DNA from: an uncultured Flavobacteriales bacterium
GTDB taxonomy: Bacteria > Bacteroidota > Bacteroidia > Flavobacteriales_G > Salibacteraceae
DNA: 53,214 bases
Reading direction: 5' to 3'
NCBI GenBank assembly: GCA_937899835.1
Contig: CALCCE010000092.1
Coordinates: 1-53,214 of the forward strand
The first letter of the stretch is position 1, and each line of letters begins with the position of its first letter. Positions 16,986-27,814 of this stretch are shown here, piece after piece. The notes under the pieces are model-generated. The model worked only from the letters and a program-made list of their open reading frames with translations, was not told the origin of the DNA and searched no databases. The position numbers and the translations under genes are program-made.

Positions 16986-17573
16986 ATGCACAGCCCTGAG
17001 TTAAGCGACAGAGTACTTATCAGTCGCTACCTGAAAGGAAGCGAAGAAAGTCTCGAAATTCTAATCGGACGCCATAAAGAGCGGGTTTACATATACATTG
17101 TAAACCTTGTGAAAGATCACGAATTGGCCGAAGACATTTTCCAAGACACATTTGTTAAAGTAATTAAGACCCTGAAGCGGGGTTCTTACAACGAGGAAGG
17201 TAAATTTCTCCCTTGGGTAATGCGTATTGCGCACAACCTTGTGGTGGATACCTTTCGTCGAGCCAAACGGATGCCCACCACCAGTGGATCACAAGACTTC
17301 GACATTTTTGACACGATCAAACAAGAAGATCCCAATGTTGAAGAGCGCATGATGGTCAACCAAATCCACGGCGACATTAAAAAGCTCATTGAGTTGTTGC
17401 CCGACGAGCAAAAGAAAGTGTTGAAAATGCGCCATTACCAAGGCATGTCTTTTAAAGACATTGCTGAAGATACCAATGTGAGCATTAACACTGCCCTTGG
17501 CCGCATGCGCTACGCTTTGATCAACTTACGAAAGTTGATGAAGGAAAGGCATTTGAACCTGACCCGGTATTAA
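16986..17573 (+). CDS. Sigma-70 family (ECF-type) RNA polymerase sigma factor
   Basis: 195 residues with only sigma regions 2 and 4. Region 2 (~20-90) shows DHELAEDIFQDTFVKVIK and the -10-recognition helix PWVMRIAHNLVVDTFRR; region 4 (~130-185) shows the helix-turn-helix LLPDEQKKVLKMRHYQGMSFKDIAEDTNVS. It redirects RNA polymerase to a special promoter set. No anti-sigma or receptor gene follows, unlike FecI-type loci; the only neighbour is a 73-residue protein gene 83 bp downstream, and a terminator follows that. The unusually strong ribosome-binding site suggests special translational control. Target promoters unknown. Confidence 0.92.
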   Translation: MHSPELSDRVLISRYLKGSEESLEILIGRHKERVYIYIVNLVKDHELAEDIFQDTFVKVIKTLKRGSYNEEGKFLPWVMRIAHNLVVDTFRRAKRMPTTSGSQDFDIFDTIKQEDPNVEERMMVNQIHGDIKKLIELLPDEQKKVLKMRHYQGMSFKDIAEDTNVSINTALGRMRYALINLRKLMKERHLNLTRY

Positions 17574-19679: not shown

Positions 19680-20144
19680 ATGACACACCTGAAAGTAGGC
19701 GATGAAGCACCCGCCATCAATGGCGTTGATCAAGATGGAAAAACCCTAAGTCTGGAACAGTACAAGGGTAAAAAAGTGATCTTGTATTTCTATCCAAGAG
19801 ACAACACTCCTACCTGCACTACCGAAGCTTGCAACTTGCGTGACAACTACGAAGAGTTGACCAACCTGGGCTACGATGTAATCGGAGTGAGCGATGACTC
19901 TGCCAAGAAGCACACCAATTTTATTAATAAGTACGAGTTGCCTTTTCGCCTGTTAGCCGATACCGAACAAAAAACCTTAAATGCATACGGTGTTTGGGGA
20001 CCTAAAAAGTTTATGGGTAGAGATTTGATCGGTACGCACCGTACTACTTTCGTAATTGATGAGGCCGGAAAAATTGAGCAAATCATCGCCAAGGTAAAAG
20101 CTAAAGAACATACCAAACAAATCCTGGAAAACGCACCAGCATAA
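19680..20144 (+). CDS. bcp: Thioredoxin-dependent thiol peroxidase (Bcp/PrxQ)
   Basis: 154 residues from ATG 19680 (MTHLKVGDEAPAINGVDQDG); the frame extends further upstream into AT-rich non-coding DNA. The peroxidatic site is NTPTCTTEACNLRD with Cys46 and, five residues on, the resolving Cys51, the atypical 2-Cys PrxQ pattern. It reduces hydrogen peroxide and alkyl hydroperoxides with electrons from thioredoxin in the cytoplasm. 64 bp upstream of recA in the same direction. The palindrome at the promoter suggests stress-responsive control. Confidence 0.95.
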   Translation: MTHLKVGDEAPAINGVDQDGKTLSLEQYKGKKVILYFYPRDNTPTCTTEACNLRDNYEELTNLGYDVIGVSDDSAKKHTNFINKYELPFRLLADTEQKTLNAYGVWGPKKFMGRDLIGTHRTTFVIDEAGKIEQIIAKVKAKEHTKQILENAPA

Positions 20145-20208
20145 GGTTGGTAGTCGGCATCAGGACCATACAATTTGAACACCAATACATCATTCTAATC
20201 CGTTGAAA

Positions 20209-21222
20209 ATGGCACAAGACGTTGCAAAAGAAAAATTGAAAGCGCTCCAGCTAACCGTAGACAAACTGGAAAAAACCTACGGCAAGGGCGCCATCATGAA
20301 ATTGGGAGATGACCAGGTAGAAGCCATCGATGCCATTTCTTCGGGCTCCCTTTCCCTCGATATCGCACTTGGTATAGGAGGTTTCCCCCGTGGACGAATT
20401 GTTGAAATCTACGGACCTGAATCGTCGGGTAAAACCACTTTGGCCATTCATGCTATCGCTGAAACCCAAAAAAAAGGAGGCATTGCTGCTATCATTGATG
20501 CAGAGCATGCCTTTGATCGGTTCTACGCCGAAAATCTTGGCGTAGACACTGAAAACCTCTACATCTCGCAACCTGACAATGGTGAGCAAGCACTGGAAAT
20601 TACCGAAAACCTGATCCGTTCAGGAGCCATAGATTTGGTAGTGATTGACTCGGTAGCTGCGCTTACGCCTAAAGCAGAGATTGAAGGGGAGATGGGAGAA
20701 TCGAAAGTAGGTTTGCAAGCCCGTTTGATGTCTCAAGCGTTGCGGAAATTAACTTCTACCATTAGCAAAACTGGATGCTGTTGCATTTTCATCAACCAGT
20801 TGCGCGAGAAAATTGGTGTGATGTTCGGTAATCCGGAGACTACCACTGGAGGTAATGCCTTGAAGTTCTACTCTTCGGTCCGTTTGGACATTCGCCGTGC
20901 CGGCCAGATCAAAGTGGCCGATCAGGTGATTGGAAACAACGTGCGGGTGAAGGTGGTCAAAAATAAAATGGCGCCACCTTTCCGGAAAGCAGAATTCGAC
21001 ATCATGTATGGCGAAGGCATTTCCAAACCAGGAGAATTGATCGACCTCGGTGTTGCCCATGGTATTCTCAACAAAAGTGGTTCTTGGTTTAGCTACGGTG
21101 AAACCAAACTTGGTCAAGGCCGGGATGCAGTGAAAAATTTGATTGCTGATAACCCCGAACTTGCCGAGGAGGTAGAAGGTAAAATCAAAGCAGCCATTAT
21201 GGGAACCGGCGAAGAAGAGTAA
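20209..21222 (+). CDS. recA: Recombinase RecA
   Basis: 337 residues from ATG 20209 ([14 protein letters not shown]); a TTG two codons upstream is less likely. Walker [10 protein letters not shown], Walker B LVVIDSV, the DNA-binding loop L2 around [13 protein letters not shown] and the C-terminal acidic tail (GTGEEE) are all present. RecA forms filaments on single-stranded DNA, drives strand exchange and stimulates LexA cleavage where LexA exists. No LexA-like box was recognised upstream. Followed by its own terminator. Confidence 0.99.
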
Positions 21223-21250
21223 AGACTAAACAGTGCCTTTATAGCTGTTA

Positions 21251-21286
21251 AAGCCCAATTTTTTGTTAAATTGGGCTTTTCTTTTG
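21251..21286 (+). terminator. Intrinsic terminator after recA
   Basis: AAGCCCAATTT and AAATTGGGCTT form a perfect 11-bp stem with a 6-nt loop, then a T-rich tail. It ends 2 bp before the start codon of the TPR lipoprotein gene. Confidence 0.88.
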
Positions 21287-21288
21287 CT

Positions 21289-22314
21289 ATGAAATTCGCC
21301 AAAACTACTCTGATTTTTAGTCTGTTTTTGACCCTTGTTGCTTGCACCGAAACCACTCCTTCGCGTCCTGCTACCACTCAATCGTCAGACACTACCGCTC
21401 ACACCATTGATCGCTATGTGGCTGTCAGCCAAAAAATCAAGGAGGAACCCAACAACCCTGCACTTTATTTTGAGCGTTCCAAGGTCTTGTTCGACAGTTT
21501 AGAGCTGGCCGATGCCATGGGTGATATCGATCGCGCCTTGTTGTTGGATTCTAACAACGCAGAATTCAGGCTGCACAAGGCCGACATTTATTACCGTCAA
21601 AACAAGACCCGACTGAGCAAGGAGCAACTGGAAAAAATTCTGGCTTTAGACAAAGACAATCTGGAAGCCAACCTTCGAATGGCGGAGATCTTTCACATTG
21701 TGGGCAACTTCAAAAAATCCATTGAATACGTGAATGAGGTGTTGCGCATCGATGTTTACAATCCGACTGCTTATTATTGGAAAGGCCTTAATTATAAAAT
21801 GATCGGCGACACGGCTACTGCAGTGTCCAGCTTTCAAACCGCTCGTGAGCAGAACAACGATTTTTTTCAAGCCTACATTCAACTTGGTTTGCTGTACGGT
21901 TCAGTAAACGATGACCAGGCCATTGCCTACTACGACAATGCAATTCGTATCCAACCCAACAGCTATGACGCGCATTACAACAAGGCCATCTATTTGCAGG
22001 AGAACAACTACCCGGAACAGGCTTTGGGAGAATACCAGATCTTAATAAAAATTGGTGGGGCCAAGCTTCCGCAGATCTATCACAACATTGGGTACGTCAA
22101 TTTGATTTACCTGGAAGATTTTCCAGCGGCCATTGAGGCGTTTGACCAAGCCCTGGCACTGTTTCCAGAATACATTGAAGCGCGCCATAACCGTGGCCTC
22201 ACTCATGAGTCGATGGGCAACGCAGAAGCTGCAGTAAAAGATTATCGGATGGTGTTAAAAATGCAACCGGATTATACCAAGTCAGCCTTGGGCTTGGAGC
22301 GGCTACTGGATTAG
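21289..22314 (+). CDS. TPR-repeat lipoprotein
   Basis: 341 residues from ATG 21289. The N-terminus KTTLIFSLFLTLVACTE is a lipoprotein signal with lipobox LVAC, so the mature protein begins at a lipidated Cys. The rest is about eight tetratricopeptide repeats (e.g. NPALYFERSKVLFDSLELAD; YIEARHNRGLTHESMGNAEA), a protein-protein interaction scaffold, probably periplasm-facing. The recA terminator ends at its start codon, so expression depends on read-through or a promoter inside the recA 3' end. Partners unknown. Confidence 0.88.
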   Translation: MKFAKTTLIFSLFLTLVACTETTPSRPATTQSSDTTAHTIDRYVAVSQKIKEEPNNPALYFERSKVLFDSLELADAMGDIDRALLLDSNNAEFRLHKADIYYRQNKTRLSKEQLEKILALDKDNLEANLRMAEIFHIVGNFKKSIEYVNEVLRIDVYNPTAYYWKGLNYKMIGDTATAVSSFQTAREQNNDFFQAYIQLGLLYGSVNDDQAIAYYDNAIRIQPNSYDAHYNKAIYLQENNYPEQALGEYQILIKIGGAKLPQIYHNIGYVNLIYLEDFPAAIEAFDQALALFPEYIEARHNRGLTHESMGNAEAAVKDYRMVLKMQPDYTKSALGLERLLD

Positions 22315-22350
22315 CGATCGGTTTCGAGCGAACCAAACACACCGAAAATA

Positions 22351-22382
22351 AAAAGGGCCGTTTCGTGAGAAACGGCCCTTTT
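22351..22382. terminator. Bidirectional terminator between TPR gene and rplT
   Basis: AAAAGGGCCGTTTC and GAAACGGCCCTTTT form a perfect 14-bp stem around GTGA, with A on one side and T on the other, so it can serve both the TPR gene (plus) and the thrS-rplT operon (minus). Confidence 0.92.
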
Positions 22383-22403
22383 TTCATACCTGAAGGGAGT
22401 TCT

Positions 22404-22748
22404 TTATTTAATCTTCTCAGCGATGGCTTTGAACGCCTCAGGGTGATTCATCGCCAAATCGGCCAATACCTTGCGGTTGAGCTCAATGTTGTTGGCATGA
22501 ATTTTACCCATAAACTCTGAGTAAGACATTCCATGTTCGCGTGCTCCGGCGTTGATTCGTTGGATCCAGAGGGCGCGGAAGTTTCTTTTCTTTTGACGAC
22601 GGTCGCGGTAAGCGTAGGTCAATCCTTTTTCTACCGCATTCTTTGCTACGGTATGGACGTTTTTACGGCGTCCGAAATAGCCTTTGGCCTGCTTCAATAC
22701 TTTTTTACGGCGGGCTTTGGCGGCTACTGCATTTACTGATCTTGGCAT
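22404..22748 (-). CDS. rplT: Large ribosomal subunit protein bL20
   Basis: 114 residues, normal length: [20 protein letters not shown], the basic helix [20 protein letters not shown] and the globular C-terminus are typical. bL20 is an early assembly protein bound to 23S rRNA. It is last in the thrS-infC-rpmI-rplT operon, 92 bp after rpmI; in other bacteria bL20 or IF-3 regulates this operon by binding the leader. The 92-nt spacer has no obvious strong hairpin. Confidence 0.98.
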
Positions 22749-22840
22749 GTGTTTTCGTTTTTTGGCCGGAAGTGCTTCCTCAATCGGAATGGCTTACTGT
22801 GTGAAACTTACGGCCGGGTTAACAATGAACCGAAATGGAT

Positions 22841-23038
22841 TTACTTGAGACGGAGCAGGAGTTTGATGTTAGACTCGTCGGCTTTGTGTACGACGGTGTC
22901 TTTACCCAACTCATGCTTGCGCTTGGTCTCTTTCTTGGTAAGAATATGGCGTTTGAACGCTTTCTTACGCTTAATCTTCCCGCTACCGGTTACGGTGAAC
23001 CTTTTTTTGGCGCTGGAATTGGTTTTTACTTTAGGCAT
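22841..23038 (-). CDS. rpmI: Large ribosomal subunit protein bL35
   Basis: 65 residues starting [20 protein letters not shown], the standard bL35 sequence, highly basic. It sits 27 bp after infC and before rplT, the order found across bacteria. Confidence 0.98.
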
Positions 23039-23065
23039 TGCGCTTTATAGTTGTATCAGGTATGC

Positions 23066-23617
23066 TTACTTTTTCTTTTTCGGGGCGATGAACATAATCA
23101 TCCGTTTCCCCTCCAATTTGGGCATTTGCTCTACTACTCCGTATTCTTCCAACTCAGTAGCTAATTTGAGGAGCAAAATTTCGCCTTTTTCTTTAAAAAG
23201 GATCGAACGTCCTTTGAAAAACACATAAGCCTTCAACTTGGCACCTTCCGATAGAAATTTAACGGCATGGTTCTTTTTGAAAGCGTAATCGTGTTCGTCA
23301 GTATTCGGTCCGAAACGTATCTCTTTGACCACAACTTTAGAAGCCTTGGCTTTCAGTTCCTTTTTCTTCTTTTTCTGATCGTAAAGGAACTTGTTGTAGT
23401 CGATGATTTTACAAACGGGTGGAACAGCTTTGGCGGCAATTTCTACCAAATCCAATTCTTGTTCCCGAGCCATGGAAAGTGCTTTTTCCAAGGAATAAAT
23501 TCCTTGCTCTCCATTCTCAAGGACAACCCGCACTTCATCAGCGCGGATCAGCCGGTTAATCCGGTGTTCTGGTTCTCTACGAATCCTTCTGCCGGATGGT
23601 CTTCTTCGGTTGGCTAT
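23066..23617 (-). CDS. infC: Translation initiation factor IF-3, ATA start
   Basis: 183 residues when started at ATA 23617. The usual IF-3 N-terminus ([21 protein letters not shown]) is coded upstream of the first GTG (23533), so the true start must lie before it. Upstream of ATA an in-frame TAA occurs after five codons with no ATG, GTG or TTG between, and AAAAGGAGG lies 8 nt before ATA. The two IF-3 domains follow, joined by a Lys-rich linker ([16 protein letters not shown]), ending IAPKKKK. IF-3 binds the 30S subunit and rejects non-standard start codons; in E. coli infC starts at AUU and is autoregulated through it. The same logic is likely here. Confidence 0.93.
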
Positions 23618-23625
23618 GAGTAAGT

Positions 23626-23634
23626 CCTCCTTTT
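23626..23634 (-). promoter_or_regulatory. Strong Shine-Dalgarno of infC
   Basis: On the minus strand AAAAGGAGG is followed by 8 nt and then ATA 23617. It lies in the 27-bp gap after thrS and decides the infC start. Confidence 0.85.
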
Positions 23635-23644
23635 AGTTAATAAT

Positions 23645-25591
23645 CTAATTCGCTTGCAGAGCAAGCTTGGTTGCAATTTCGTCGTTGATGATCTTGGCAA
23701 AATCTGCTACTGGCATTGATCCCAAATCGCCCTCCCCTTGCTTGCGAACCGAAACGGTGTTTTGTTCCACTTCTTTTTCGCCGAGGATGAGCATATAAGG
23801 AATCTTTTTCAGCTCAGTATCTCGGATTTTTCGTCCGATCTTTTCGCTTCTGTCATCAACGAATCCGCGAATATCGTAATTATTTAGCGATAATAAAAGA
23901 TTGTGTGCGTGTTCGTTGTACTTCTCACTGATGGGCAAAACGGCTACTTGTTCGGGGGTGAGCCAGAGCGGAAACTTACCTGCGCAGTGCTCAATCAAAA
24001 CCGCAACAAAACGTTCCATGGAGCCGAAGGGCGCTCGGTGAATCATCACCGGACGGTGTTTTTCGTTGTCGCTACCGGTGTAGGTTAACTCGAAACGCTC
24101 GGGCAGGTTGTAATCTACCTGAATGGTGCCCAACTGCCATTTTCGACCTAAGGCATCTTTCACCATGAAATCGAGCTTGGGTCCGTAGAACGCGGCTTCT
24201 CCCACCTCTACAACCGTATCCAGGCCTTTTTCAGCAGCAGCTTCGGTAATGGCCAGTTCCGCTTTGTCCCAATGCTCGCTGCTGCCCAGGTATTTGTCGT
24301 TGTCGTTTGGATCGCGCAAAGAAATTTGAGCGGTGAAGTCTTCGAAATCCAAGGCTCGGAAAACGTAGAGCACCAGATCAATCACCTTTTTGAACTCCTC
24401 TTTCACTTGATCGGGCCGACAGAAAATGTGGGCATCATCTTGGGTAAAGCCACGCACTCGGGTCAAGCCGTGTAACTCCCCGTGTTGCTCATATCGGTAT
24501 ACCGTACCAAACTCTGCATAGCGAACCGGCAAATCGCGGTAAGATCGTGGCAAAGCCGCATAAATTTCGATGTGGTGTGGGCAATTCATCGGTTTGAGGA
24601 AGTACTCCTCATTTTCGTGCGGAGTGGTGATCGGCTGAAATGAATCTCCTCCGTATTTCTGAAAGTGCCCTGAGGTCTTGTAAAGTTCTAAGTTGCCAAT
24701 GTGGGGTGTAATCACCTGTTGGTAGCCAGCTTCCAACTGAGCCTTGCGCATAAAATCTTCTAAGCGGTACCGAAGGTCTGCTCCTTTGGGCAACCACAAC
24801 GGAAGTCCCATGCCCACCCGCTGCGAAAAGGTGAAGAGTTCCAACTCTTTCCCAAGCTTCCGGTGATCCCGTTTTTTGGCCTCTTCAAGCATTTGCAGGT
24901 GCTCGGTCAGTTCTTTTTGTTTCGGAAAAGAAACTGCGTAAATACGAGTAAGCTGCTTTTTGTTTTCATCGCCTCGCCAGTAGGCGCCAGCAATATTGAG
25001 CAGTTTCACCGCCTTGATAAATCCAGTGTCCGGAATGTGAGGTCCACGACAGAGATCGGTAAAATTACCTTGGGTGTAAAAGGTGATACTACCGTCTTCA
25101 AGGCCGTCCAGCAAGTCGAGCTTGTATTCATCGTCCTTTTCGGTGAAGTAGGCGATGGCATCGTCCTTGGAAACCTCTTTGCGATCGAAGGTGTTTTTTT
25201 CGCGGGCCAATTCGAGCATTTTCTTCTCGATTTTTGGAAAATCGTCAGAAGAAATGCTGCGGTCGCCCAAGTCGATATCGTAGTAGAACCCGTTTTCTAT
25301 CGGCGGACCAATTCCAAACTTGGTTCCAGGATAGAAAAATTCGAGTGCTTCCGCCATCAGGTGGGCCGAAGAGTGCCACATGGTGTTCTTACCTTCGGTG
25401 TCTTTCCAGGTAAGCAGTTGCAGGTCGGCGTCTGTGGTGATAGAACGGTTGGCATCCCAAACTTCACCGTTTACTTTGGCGGCCAGTACGTTGCGGGCCA
25501 GCCCTTCGCTAATGCTGCGTGCTACTTCCATGGACGAGGTTCCGGCTTCGTATTGCCGCTCCGAACCATCGGGAAGGGTAATTGTAATCAT
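23645..25591 (-). CDS. thrS: Threonyl-tRNA synthetase
   Basis: 648 residues, full length. N-terminal TGS domain (1-~62), then the editing/second additional domain (~65-230, [11 protein letters not shown]), the class II catalytic core with motif 2 region [19 protein letters not shown] and zinc ligands including the Cys of MNCPHH, and a C-terminal anticodon-binding domain ([12 protein letters not shown]). It charges tRNA-Thr. First gene of the operon with infC, rpmI and rplT. Confidence 0.99.
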
Positions 25592-25614
25592 GTGTTCAAT
25601 CGATTTTGAGCCGC

Positions 25615-25622
25615 CAAAGATA
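25615..25622 (-). promoter_or_regulatory. -7 promoter box for the thrS operon
   Basis: Minus-strand TATCTTTG, exact TAnnTTTG, 24 bp before the thrS ATG; leader about 18-20 nt, too short for a T-box or thrS-like operator. A TTG about 25 bp further upstream may be the -33 element. Confidence 0.6.
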
Positions 25623-25660
25623 GCAATTCCAATGTTGAATGTTTGAACAATAATGCTGTC

Positions 25661-25685
25661 GAAAAAGACCAGACGAATAGGTCCT
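25661..25685 (-). terminator. Weak terminator after the M48 peptidase gene
   Basis: Minus strand: AGGACC and GGTCTT form a 6-bp stem (one G-T) with a 9-nt loop, followed by TTT, 6 bp after the stop. Confidence 0.4.
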
Positions 25686-25690
25686 GAAAC

Positions 25691-27814
25691 TTACTGCTCT
25701 GCCGGTATATAGGGCGCTGCGATATGCTCCTGCAACTCCAGCAATGCACTGAGACTTTTGAAGTGCAAACGCCTCAAACGACCCGACATTTCATCGCACT
25801 GCGATAAAAATGGGTTGATCCAGGTATCCACTATTTTGTTTCGTGTGGCAGATGGAGCCTGATTTTTAGGGCACAAAAACTTCTTGAGGTCTTCAATGGC
25901 TTGTAGGTTGGGCAAGGTGGGTAGCTGTAAGGCTTTGGCTTCTTCAAACACAAGATCCATGCGCTGCGCCTGTTCGGTAAACAGGTTTTGATACACGACC
26001 ACCTGATTTTCATCCAACTGTCCGTTGGCAATGATTTCCTGCACTCCTTTTTGTGCATTCTCCATCGCTTGCTGGGTAGTTGCCAACATATTTTGAAGCG
26101 TGAGGTGGGCCTCGTAGCGATGGTGAAGCTCTTTGCGTTGCACTGTTGAGGCAAGCGCAAAATGCCAATCCACCACTTGCTGATCAATCCTGGTTAGTTC
26201 CTTGGTGTTGGTTTCCCACTCTTTTTCTACCGACTTGAGGATGGTGCGGGCCTCCTTTTTGCTTTTTTCCTCGCCTCTAAATTGAAAATGCTTGTTTTTC
26301 ACTACTCCGTGGACAACCGAAGCTACCTGATTCAGTTCTTCCTCTAACTTTTGGCGTTGGGTCATTGCTTTGGCGAGGCTTACCTCGTACAGTTCTTTTA
26401 GCTGCTCGGCGGGTTGTTGGAGTTTTTCCAGCGTTGCTCCTTCCTCGGGAAGTTTCAGGTCGATAAGAAAACGATTTTCGTAAGTGTTGTGGTACCGCGG
26501 ATGAAACTCAGTATCCTGCAATTCACTTTCGATGAACTGTTGCACTTGCTCCGGGGCCGAGAATTTCAGCTGGACTGGCTTGCCTGCTCCTTTTCCTTCT
26601 ACAAAATGACGGTAGAGCTTCCGGGTCAATTGCATTTTCAGTTCTCCTGCAGCTTTGAACAGTTCCCAAGGCGAACGCTGATCCTCCACGCCTTTAACGA
26701 AGGTTTGTTTGGCATTTTGTTCCCGCTGGTAGTTGGGCGGGTGGCTTGCATACATCACCGGTACTTCCAATTCATCCTTGGAAAATACCATGCCTTCTTT
26801 CTCTGAGTCGCTGGTTGAGGCAGTAGCGACTTTCTTTTTTTCAAGGTAGGCGATGGCCTTTTGGTGGTGAAAGAAGAAATCGGAGGAGTACAATTGGTGA
26901 TCAGCCGCCGAGCCTAAATTTTGAAAGGTAAGCCCCATGGCTTCCCCGGCACCGTCCAACTTGGCCAAGCCGTTGACGATGGCATTGCTACCAGTAACGC
27001 TTACTGCCACTAAATCGGCGTTGAATTCCATCTGGCGCGATAAAGACATGTGAAGCAAATACAGTCCTTTGTAGCAGAGCCACAAGGTTTGCCGAAGCAA
27101 AAACACCACCGCTTTCAGGGCGAGGGCAGGAGCCGCAATCCGAATATCCGATTGGGTAGCGCCATCCAACAAATTGTCCCAATAGTCCCGACCGTTCACC
27201 ATGGAGTCGATCACGCGAAAAGAGACGTAGACATAACTGCCCAGCTTCATGCTGCGCTGCGCAAAATGTCCGAATTCATGGGCTAAAACCGCTTTGAATT
27301 CTGTGAGGTTCAAGGAGTTGACCAAACCCAAACCGATGAGCAGGTTTTTGCGCTCGGGCAAAAACAAGCTCCGCATTGGATGTTCGTAATAAACTGCTGC
27401 GTTGATCTCGGAGGTGGCCACAATCTTTTTAGGAAACGGGGCTCCGGTATCACGGGTCAATTGGCGGACAAAGGCAAACAACTCGGGATAATCTTGCTCC
27501 TTAAGTTCTACACGGTCGTCGTCTTCCTCTGCCTTTTTACTGAACAAGAACTTGAGCGAAAAAACGAACAACATGGCTGCTCCGGCGATGGCTACCAGCT
27601 TGAGAAAGATGGTCCATTTGTTGACGTGCGTTATTTCATAAATGGCTGCCAGATAAGTCAGGTAGGCCGTTCCCGCCACCAAGGCAAAGTAAAAAAGCCA
27701 AAAAAGGATAACACCAAGTAGCACGAAGAAAACGCGCCATTTGTAAGAAGCGGGCAAACGCAATAATTGCTTTGCGTCCACAGTGGGACTTTGGGGGTAC
27801 AAATCAGAAATCAC
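25691..27814 (-). CDS. Membrane-bound M48-family metallopeptidase
   Basis: 707 residues from GTG 27814. Two hydrophobic segments at ~28-57 and ~68-90 anchor it in the inner membrane. The zinc motif HEFGH is near residue 182 (LAHEFGHFAQRSM), as in M48 proteases, with more membrane-like segments after it (~225-255). A long C-terminal part (~330-707), rich in Q, E and K and with coiled-coil character (QRQKLEEELNQVASVV), has no recognised domain. M48 proteases such as HtpX cleave misfolded membrane proteins; the target here is unknown. Lies 61 bp downstream of the OmpA gene. Confidence 0.85.
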   Translation of the reverse strand: MISDLYPQSPTVDAKQLLRLPASYKWRVFFVLLGVILFWLFYFALVAGTAYLTYLAAIYEITHVNKWTIFLKLVAIAGAAMLFVFSLKFLFSKKAEEDDDRVELKEQDYPELFAFVRQLTRDTGAPFPKKIVATSEINAAVYYEHPMRSLFLPERKNLLIGLGLVNSLNLTEFKAVLAHEFGHFAQRSMKLGSYVYVSFRVIDSMVNGRDYWDNLLDGATQSDIRIAAPALALKAVVFLLRQTLWLCYKGLYLLHMSLSRQMEFNADLVAVSVTGSNAIVNGLAKLDGAGEAMGLTFQNLGSAADHQLYSSDFFFHHQKAIAYLEKKKVATASTSDSEKEGMVFSKDELEVPVMYASHPPNYQREQNAKQTFVKGVEDQRSPWELFKAAGELKMQLTRKLYRHFVEGKGAGKPVQLKFSAPEQVQQFIESELQDTEFHPRYHNTYENRFLIDLKLPEEGATLEKLQQPAEQLKELYEVSLAKAMTQRQKLEEELNQVASVVHGVVKNKHFQFRGEEKSKKEARTILKSVEKEWETNTKELTRIDQQVVDWHFALASTVQRKELHHRYEAHLTLQNMLATTQQAMENAQKGVQEIIANGQLDENQVVVYQNLFTEQAQRMDLVFEEAKALQLPTLPNLQAIEDLKKFLCPKNQAPSATRNKIVDTWINPFLSQCDEMSGRLRRLHFKSLSALLELQEHIAAPYIPAEQ

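Follow-up and report, generated by a model that had tools for sequence, protein, structure and literature searches.

The stretch of DNA analyzed here (the window; 53,214 nt) comes from an uncultured member of the Flavobacteriales and carries on its minus strand four genes in the order thrS-infC-rpmI-rplT. Of these, thrS (23645..25591; 648 amino acids [aa]) ends 27 nt 5′ of the AUA codon from which we read infC, the gene for initiation factor IF3 (23066..23617; 183 aa from ATA), while rpmI (22841..23038; bL35) and rplT (22404..22748; bL20) both have ATG starts without a Shine-Dalgarno sequence (SD). The infC product matched PF05198 (E value, 1.5e-28; the sole match in the genome) and IF3 of solved structures (E value, 4.5e-42).

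The AUA codon (23615..23617, minus strand) is preceded by the SD AAAAGGAGG (23626..23634, minus strand; pairing, −11.8 kcal/mol) and separated from it by ACTTACTC (8 nt), a working distance. An in-frame TAA (23633..23635, minus strand) overlaps the SD, with five sense codons (AAG GAG GAC TTA CTC) between it and ATA. No ATG, GTG, or TTG (here NUG) is in frame from this stop to GTG 23533 (23531..23533, minus strand), which lies within the conserved IF3 N-domain and was judged not to be a start; a protein read from it would have 155 aa and begin 28 residues late. Of the usual and near-usual start codons, AUA alone falls between the upstream stop and the conserved N terminus. The Pfam IF3_N match starts upstream of this GTG, at 23560. 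With GTG as residue 29, alignment to the best solved IF3 chain begins at infC residue 8, and that to the other chains covering the N-domain begins at residues 17 to 19. A sequence-only reading of the window, in which the strand was not given, had proposed that infC begins at ATA 23617 behind an SD 8 nt away, with an in-frame stop five codons upstream, no ATG, GTG, or TTG before the first usable GTG, and the conserved IF3 N terminus encoded ahead of that GTG. Each of these points was borne out on the minus strand, and on this sequence evidence, infC is confirmed as a real, correctly read feature. The six matches of an Rfam scan of positions 20000 to 27000 scored well short of the gathering scores, and none lay at the infC start; folding of the start region gave nothing special (z, −0.26).

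Both the codon and the SD are scarce in their own surroundings. Among the 722 Ile codons of 25 genes in the window, 43 are ATA, and 7 copies of AAAAGGAGG, that of infC among them, were counted in 617,556 strand positions (308,778 sampled bases of the window genome). SD use was surveyed at 195 long open reading frames (ORFs) of the same genome by a crude rule that takes the first ATG as the start. Pairing of −8 kcal/mol or stronger was found before 6 starts and in 6 mock windows, pairing of −10 kcal/mol or stronger before 5 starts and in 4 mock windows, and pairing as strong as that of infC at 2 of the 195 starts. Since starts and mock windows give like frequencies, no general SD use is seen in this genome, which supports the sequence-only reading of a strong infC SD in a phylum where SD use is suppressed. 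The occurrence of both ATA and AAAAGGAGG at infC is more than chance. The genome's own 16S was not found among the 8 of 119 candidates scored. The 16S end was read in 10 family genomes, and in all 10 the tail holds the anti-SD CCUCCUUU, followed by U or C; the 9-nt AAAAGGAGG would pair with a tail reading CCUCCUUUU. Elsewhere in the window, an ORF at 16986..17573 (plus strand), which by eye resembles a sigma-70 family factor, has AAAAGGAGG ending 4 nt before its ATG; its pairing (−13.1 kcal/mol) is the strongest of the 195 ORF starts, at a short spacing.

Conservation of the start codon was read in three sets. The named relatives are the best 80 of at least 588 confirmed stretches, mostly Flavobacteriales with a few labeled just “Bacteroidia” or “Bacteroidetes bacterium,” and their counts are inflated by relatedness. 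All of these best 80 carry the homologous ATA followed by an Ala codon, which supports initiation at ATA. There is no NUG before the conserved core in 75, and the sole NUG in the other 5 lies 11 to 13 codons 3′ of ATA. The remaining Ile codons of infC in the same best 80 number 1,125 (ATA, 268; ATT, 597; ATC, 260). An upstream in-frame stop is present at all 80 loci, with at most 17 sense codons between it and ATA (at most 1 in 44 loci); variation is low, with a third-position bias 3′ of ATA and no codon pattern 5′ of it. No SD was found at the infC AUA in any of the best 80 of at least 588, so some other signal can serve there. The leader bases are A at −13 (95%), A at −12 (99%), G at −3 (93%), and C at −1 (89%) among these 80 loci. 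Over positions −22 to −1, their SD-less leaders (L002 to L081) have in common an A/T-rich block with an almost invariant A at both −13 and −12, followed by G at −3 and C at −1. Upstream adenines, including −13, −12, and −3, have been named as Bacteroidia initiation determinants (PMC9976891); those at −12 and −13 match in the best 80, and A at −3 is missing. Although thrS is upstream of infC at all 80 of these loci, its spacing runs from 10 to 99 nt, and a fixed-distance coupling to thrS was rejected.

Within the window's own family, a search of 35 genomes matched 32, and each of the 32 loci was examined. The starts were ATA with an SD (13 loci), ATA without an SD (5), ATT (10), ATC (2), and TTG (2), giving ATA at 18 and AUA, AUU, or AUC (AUH) at 30 of the 32; in these counts, L095 and L096 (ATA at −22, ATT at −18) were scored ATT by choice, as was L082 (ATC and ATA two codons apart) ATC. 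No NUG precedes the core at 28 of the 32 loci. In 30 of the 32, an SD stands before infC at 12, before rpmI at 1, and before rplT at none. Four other loci of the order (L141 to L144) comprise two with AGGAGG before ATA or ATT and two with TTG. As a trait, AUA with an SD thus stands in 13 of 32 family loci and fails in the named relatives (0 of the best 80 of at least 588), and since AUA is kept there without an SD, the combination describes some lineages and not the phylum. Together with the absence of an SD at 17 of the 30 AUH loci in the window's family, this indicates that an SD is unneeded for AUA initiation generally. The window genome's rpsU (L269) has an ATG start and no SD; rpsU was read in 22 of 28 loci, and GGAGG precedes its ATG in 6 of the 22 family loci read. 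By eye, no link was seen between the SDs of infC and rpsU, which occur together in some genomes and either alone in others.

The class-wide sample (149 genomes searched, 147 matched) gave 148 sequences from 62 families, all fetched and scored. From the upstream stop to the core, 63 of the 148 have no ATG, GTG, or TTG (31 of 62 families), and an AUH candidate is present in 62 of these 63. Because several candidates per sequence were tried, a mock window 30 nt upstream was used for comparison; an SD precedes the AUH candidate in 31 of 63, versus 4 of 63 for the mock window. Among the 81 other sequences with a plausibly placed NUG, which include 16 later called AUH with the SD standing before the AUH codon, 2 have an SD at NUG (31/63 versus 2/81; Fisher P value, 8e-12, relatedness ignored). 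This comparison avoids most of the bias of the called-start table, in which the SD helps choose the start. There, 147 called starts (ATA, 48; TTG, 28; ATC, 19; ATT, 18; GTG, 17; ATG, 17) have an SD at 47 of 85 AUH and 1 of 62 NUG codons. By family majority, 21 families are AUH with and 16 AUH without an SD, and 1 is NUG with and 24 NUG without (Fisher P value, about 1e-5, relatedness ignored). Eight families hold both start types. Families 80 and 83 fit an SD-AUH rule and family 84 is mixed, while families 9, 54, 56, 61, and 95 lack an SD at both start types, leaving the SD link unsupported there. With 62 of the 147 called sequences starting at NUG, infC can work without an AUH start.

Although the class is described as disregarding SDs, they accompany AUA, AUU, and AUC starts of infC in it and rarely its NUG codons, a pattern that we found nowhere described. 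A broader start rule mistook purine-rich coding stretches directly ahead of the core for SDs and was restricted, and six internal class matches were re-called; starts were scored among AUH and NUG codons, and calls without an SD depend on the rules of this analysis. Among control genes, rpmI has an SD in 4 of 80 named loci (best 80 of at least 588) and 2 of 23 class loci, and rplT has one in 1 of the 23 class loci. A laxer rule found infC SDs in 9 of 29 loci of the class, and the three infC matches at named loci (best 80 of at least 588) were internal codons. These controls weaken the SD contrast outside the family. One sequence (L207, family f65), counted in the 148 and the 63 and outside the 147 called, has no in-frame AUH or NUG candidate; by eye, another frame seems to read ATA GCA ACC CCC, a sequence that its relative L196 has in frame, pointing to a frameshift or an error of assembly in the N-terminal tail. 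One genome of the sample (G448) has two IF3 matches (L167 and L354), both without NUG before the core. Upstream of infC, thrS was found in 108 of the 136 class sequences, a set with many members trimmed to a few hundred bases.

From other classes of the phylum, 36 loci were read, the best 30 of 289 matches plus six picked, which do not make a fair sample. No NUG precedes the core in 24 of these 36, mostly with ATC instead; in 14 of the 24, ATC is followed by an Ala codon, and several have GAGG upstream. The sequence-only reading had likened the window start to the AUU of Escherichia coli infC, with AUA as the difference. The parallel with AUU holds, but AUA as an infC start is not new, and AUA, AUU, and AUC starts are common in the class and at the other loci of the phylum that were read. 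On the comparison of infC starts across Bacteroidota, which it had offered as a check, ATA is conserved in the named relatives (best 80 of at least 588) and AUH in the family (30 of 32 loci).

What the sequence shows directly is a conserved start at AUA, together with an SD that is conspicuous within its genome; autoregulation of infC by IF3 in the window genome is what we infer. The start could instead be real yet act as a fixed brake on IF3 with no feedback, the SD being a relic or weakly read. We consider this unlikely. Many relatives do have AUA without an SD, or a TTG, GTG, or ATG start, and Bacteroidia ribosomes sequester the anti-SD (PMC9976891). A relic would not be expected to follow AUH starts across the class as SDs do (31/63 versus 2/81), however, and IF3 repression of non-NUG starts has been demonstrated in E. 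coli and Streptomyces (PMC5472188). Initiation at GTG 23533 or another internal codon, leaving ATA untranslated and giving a shorter IF3, is very unlikely. GTG 23533 is the first standard start in frame, which gene finders limited to ATG, GTG, and TTG must choose, but the IF3_N match and the solved chains begin ahead of it, the SD is positioned for ATA and not for GTG, and 75 of 80 named relatives (best 80 of at least 588) lack any NUG ahead of the core. A sequencing or assembly error that turned ATG into ATA, which had been named as a possible refutation and which a fragmented assembly (307 contigs) might invite, has a negligible chance, since ATA recurs at 80 of 80 named loci (best 80 of at least 588) and 17 other family loci, with ATT or ATC at 12 more.

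The explanation that we hold to be probable, taken as a whole, is that infC starts at AUA 23617, with IF3 feedback acting on this codon and the SD keeping it usable. The initiator tRNA would read AUA with a third-position mismatch, and IF3 would destabilize such a complex. Since IF3 would reject AUA, infC would come under feedback, with little translation at high IF3 levels and more at low levels, a negative feedback like that at the E. coli AUU. The SD may retain the 30S subunit on the mRNA for a time sufficient for initiation at the poor codon; this would account for the SDs of the class standing at AUA, AUU, and AUC and rarely at NUG of infC. A broader proposal makes infC a second SD-controlled gene besides rpsU in the SD-poor Bacteroidia. 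Here the SD would let ribosomes with a free anti-SD (e.g., those lacking bS21) use a codon that ribosomes with a hidden anti-SD and IF3 reject, translation of infC would respond both to how much IF3 is present and to the share of 30S subunits whose anti-SD is free, and in SD-less relatives the replacement signal would consist of A at both −13 and −12 together with G at −3 and C at −1 (best 80 of at least 588). All of this together is doubtful.

The probable explanation, AUA with IF3 feedback and a supporting SD, would extend the best-known start-codon feedback of bacteria to a phylum with a different way of initiation. It would also make infC a gene in which SDs survive alongside a codon that may need them. 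The link between SDs and poor start codons across the class is the part worth following, and it opens to direct test the question of whether the ribosomes of Bacteroidia make use of an SD at a poor start codon. McNutt et al. concluded that, among Flavobacteriales, SD control is confined to rpsU (PMC9976891). For infC, the named relatives, mostly Flavobacteriales, agree (0 of the best 80 of at least 588), and the own family departs from it (SD at 13 of 32 loci). The same paper mentions SDs missed through wrong 5′ ends in ribosomal protein genes. Because the start of infC is easy to misplace in this phylum, scans for SDs at annotated starts can miss this one as well; infC is misannotated in most Streptomyces (PMC5472188). 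In literature covered mainly by titles and abstracts, and thinly for subscription journals, we found no description of Bacteroidota infC start codons, and the word “infC” is absent from PMC9976891, PMC6847099, and PMC8710568.

The window infC is most likely a further case of the known non-NUG infC starts of E. coli, Streptomyces, and Staphylococcus aureus, for which limitation of IF3 synthesis by IF3 itself has been shown or proposed. The infC start is ATT in E. coli and ATC in Streptomyces; IF3 represses non-NUG starts and autoregulates (PMC5472188). E. coli (PMC5472188) and the window share a non-NUG start and a full IF3 product, with AUU there and AUA here; the window genome, unlike the E. 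coli system, has no general SD use, and its feedback is a predicted one. Streptomyces is alike in the non-NUG starts of infC (ATC) and of sigR (GTC; IF3 repressed), the latter also with an extensive SD, and differs in codons, in phylum, and in the IF3 overproduction and infC mutants used to study it (PMC5472188). A further such case is S. aureus infC, where the start was mapped to AUA by Ribo-Ret, an extended SD was predicted, and autoregulation was called likely (PMC13009471), so that AUA as an infC start is not new. Gene and codon are the same, and a strong SD stands before both; in S. aureus, however, SDs are the rule (PMC13009471), whereas the window start was read from sequence in a genome without general SD use. 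In Bacteroidia ribosomes, the anti-SD is held by bS21, bS18, and bS6, and ribosomes of the Flavobacterium johnsoniae type are reported not to recognize SDs (PMC9976891). Flavobacteriales rpsU, autoregulated through bS21 and reported to have SD helices of 9 to 13 bp, resembles the window infC in having an exceptional SD where the anti-SD is hidden and in encoding part of the initiation machinery (PMC9976891). The window genome differs from that case, with rpsU starting at ATG without an SD and infC carrying one.
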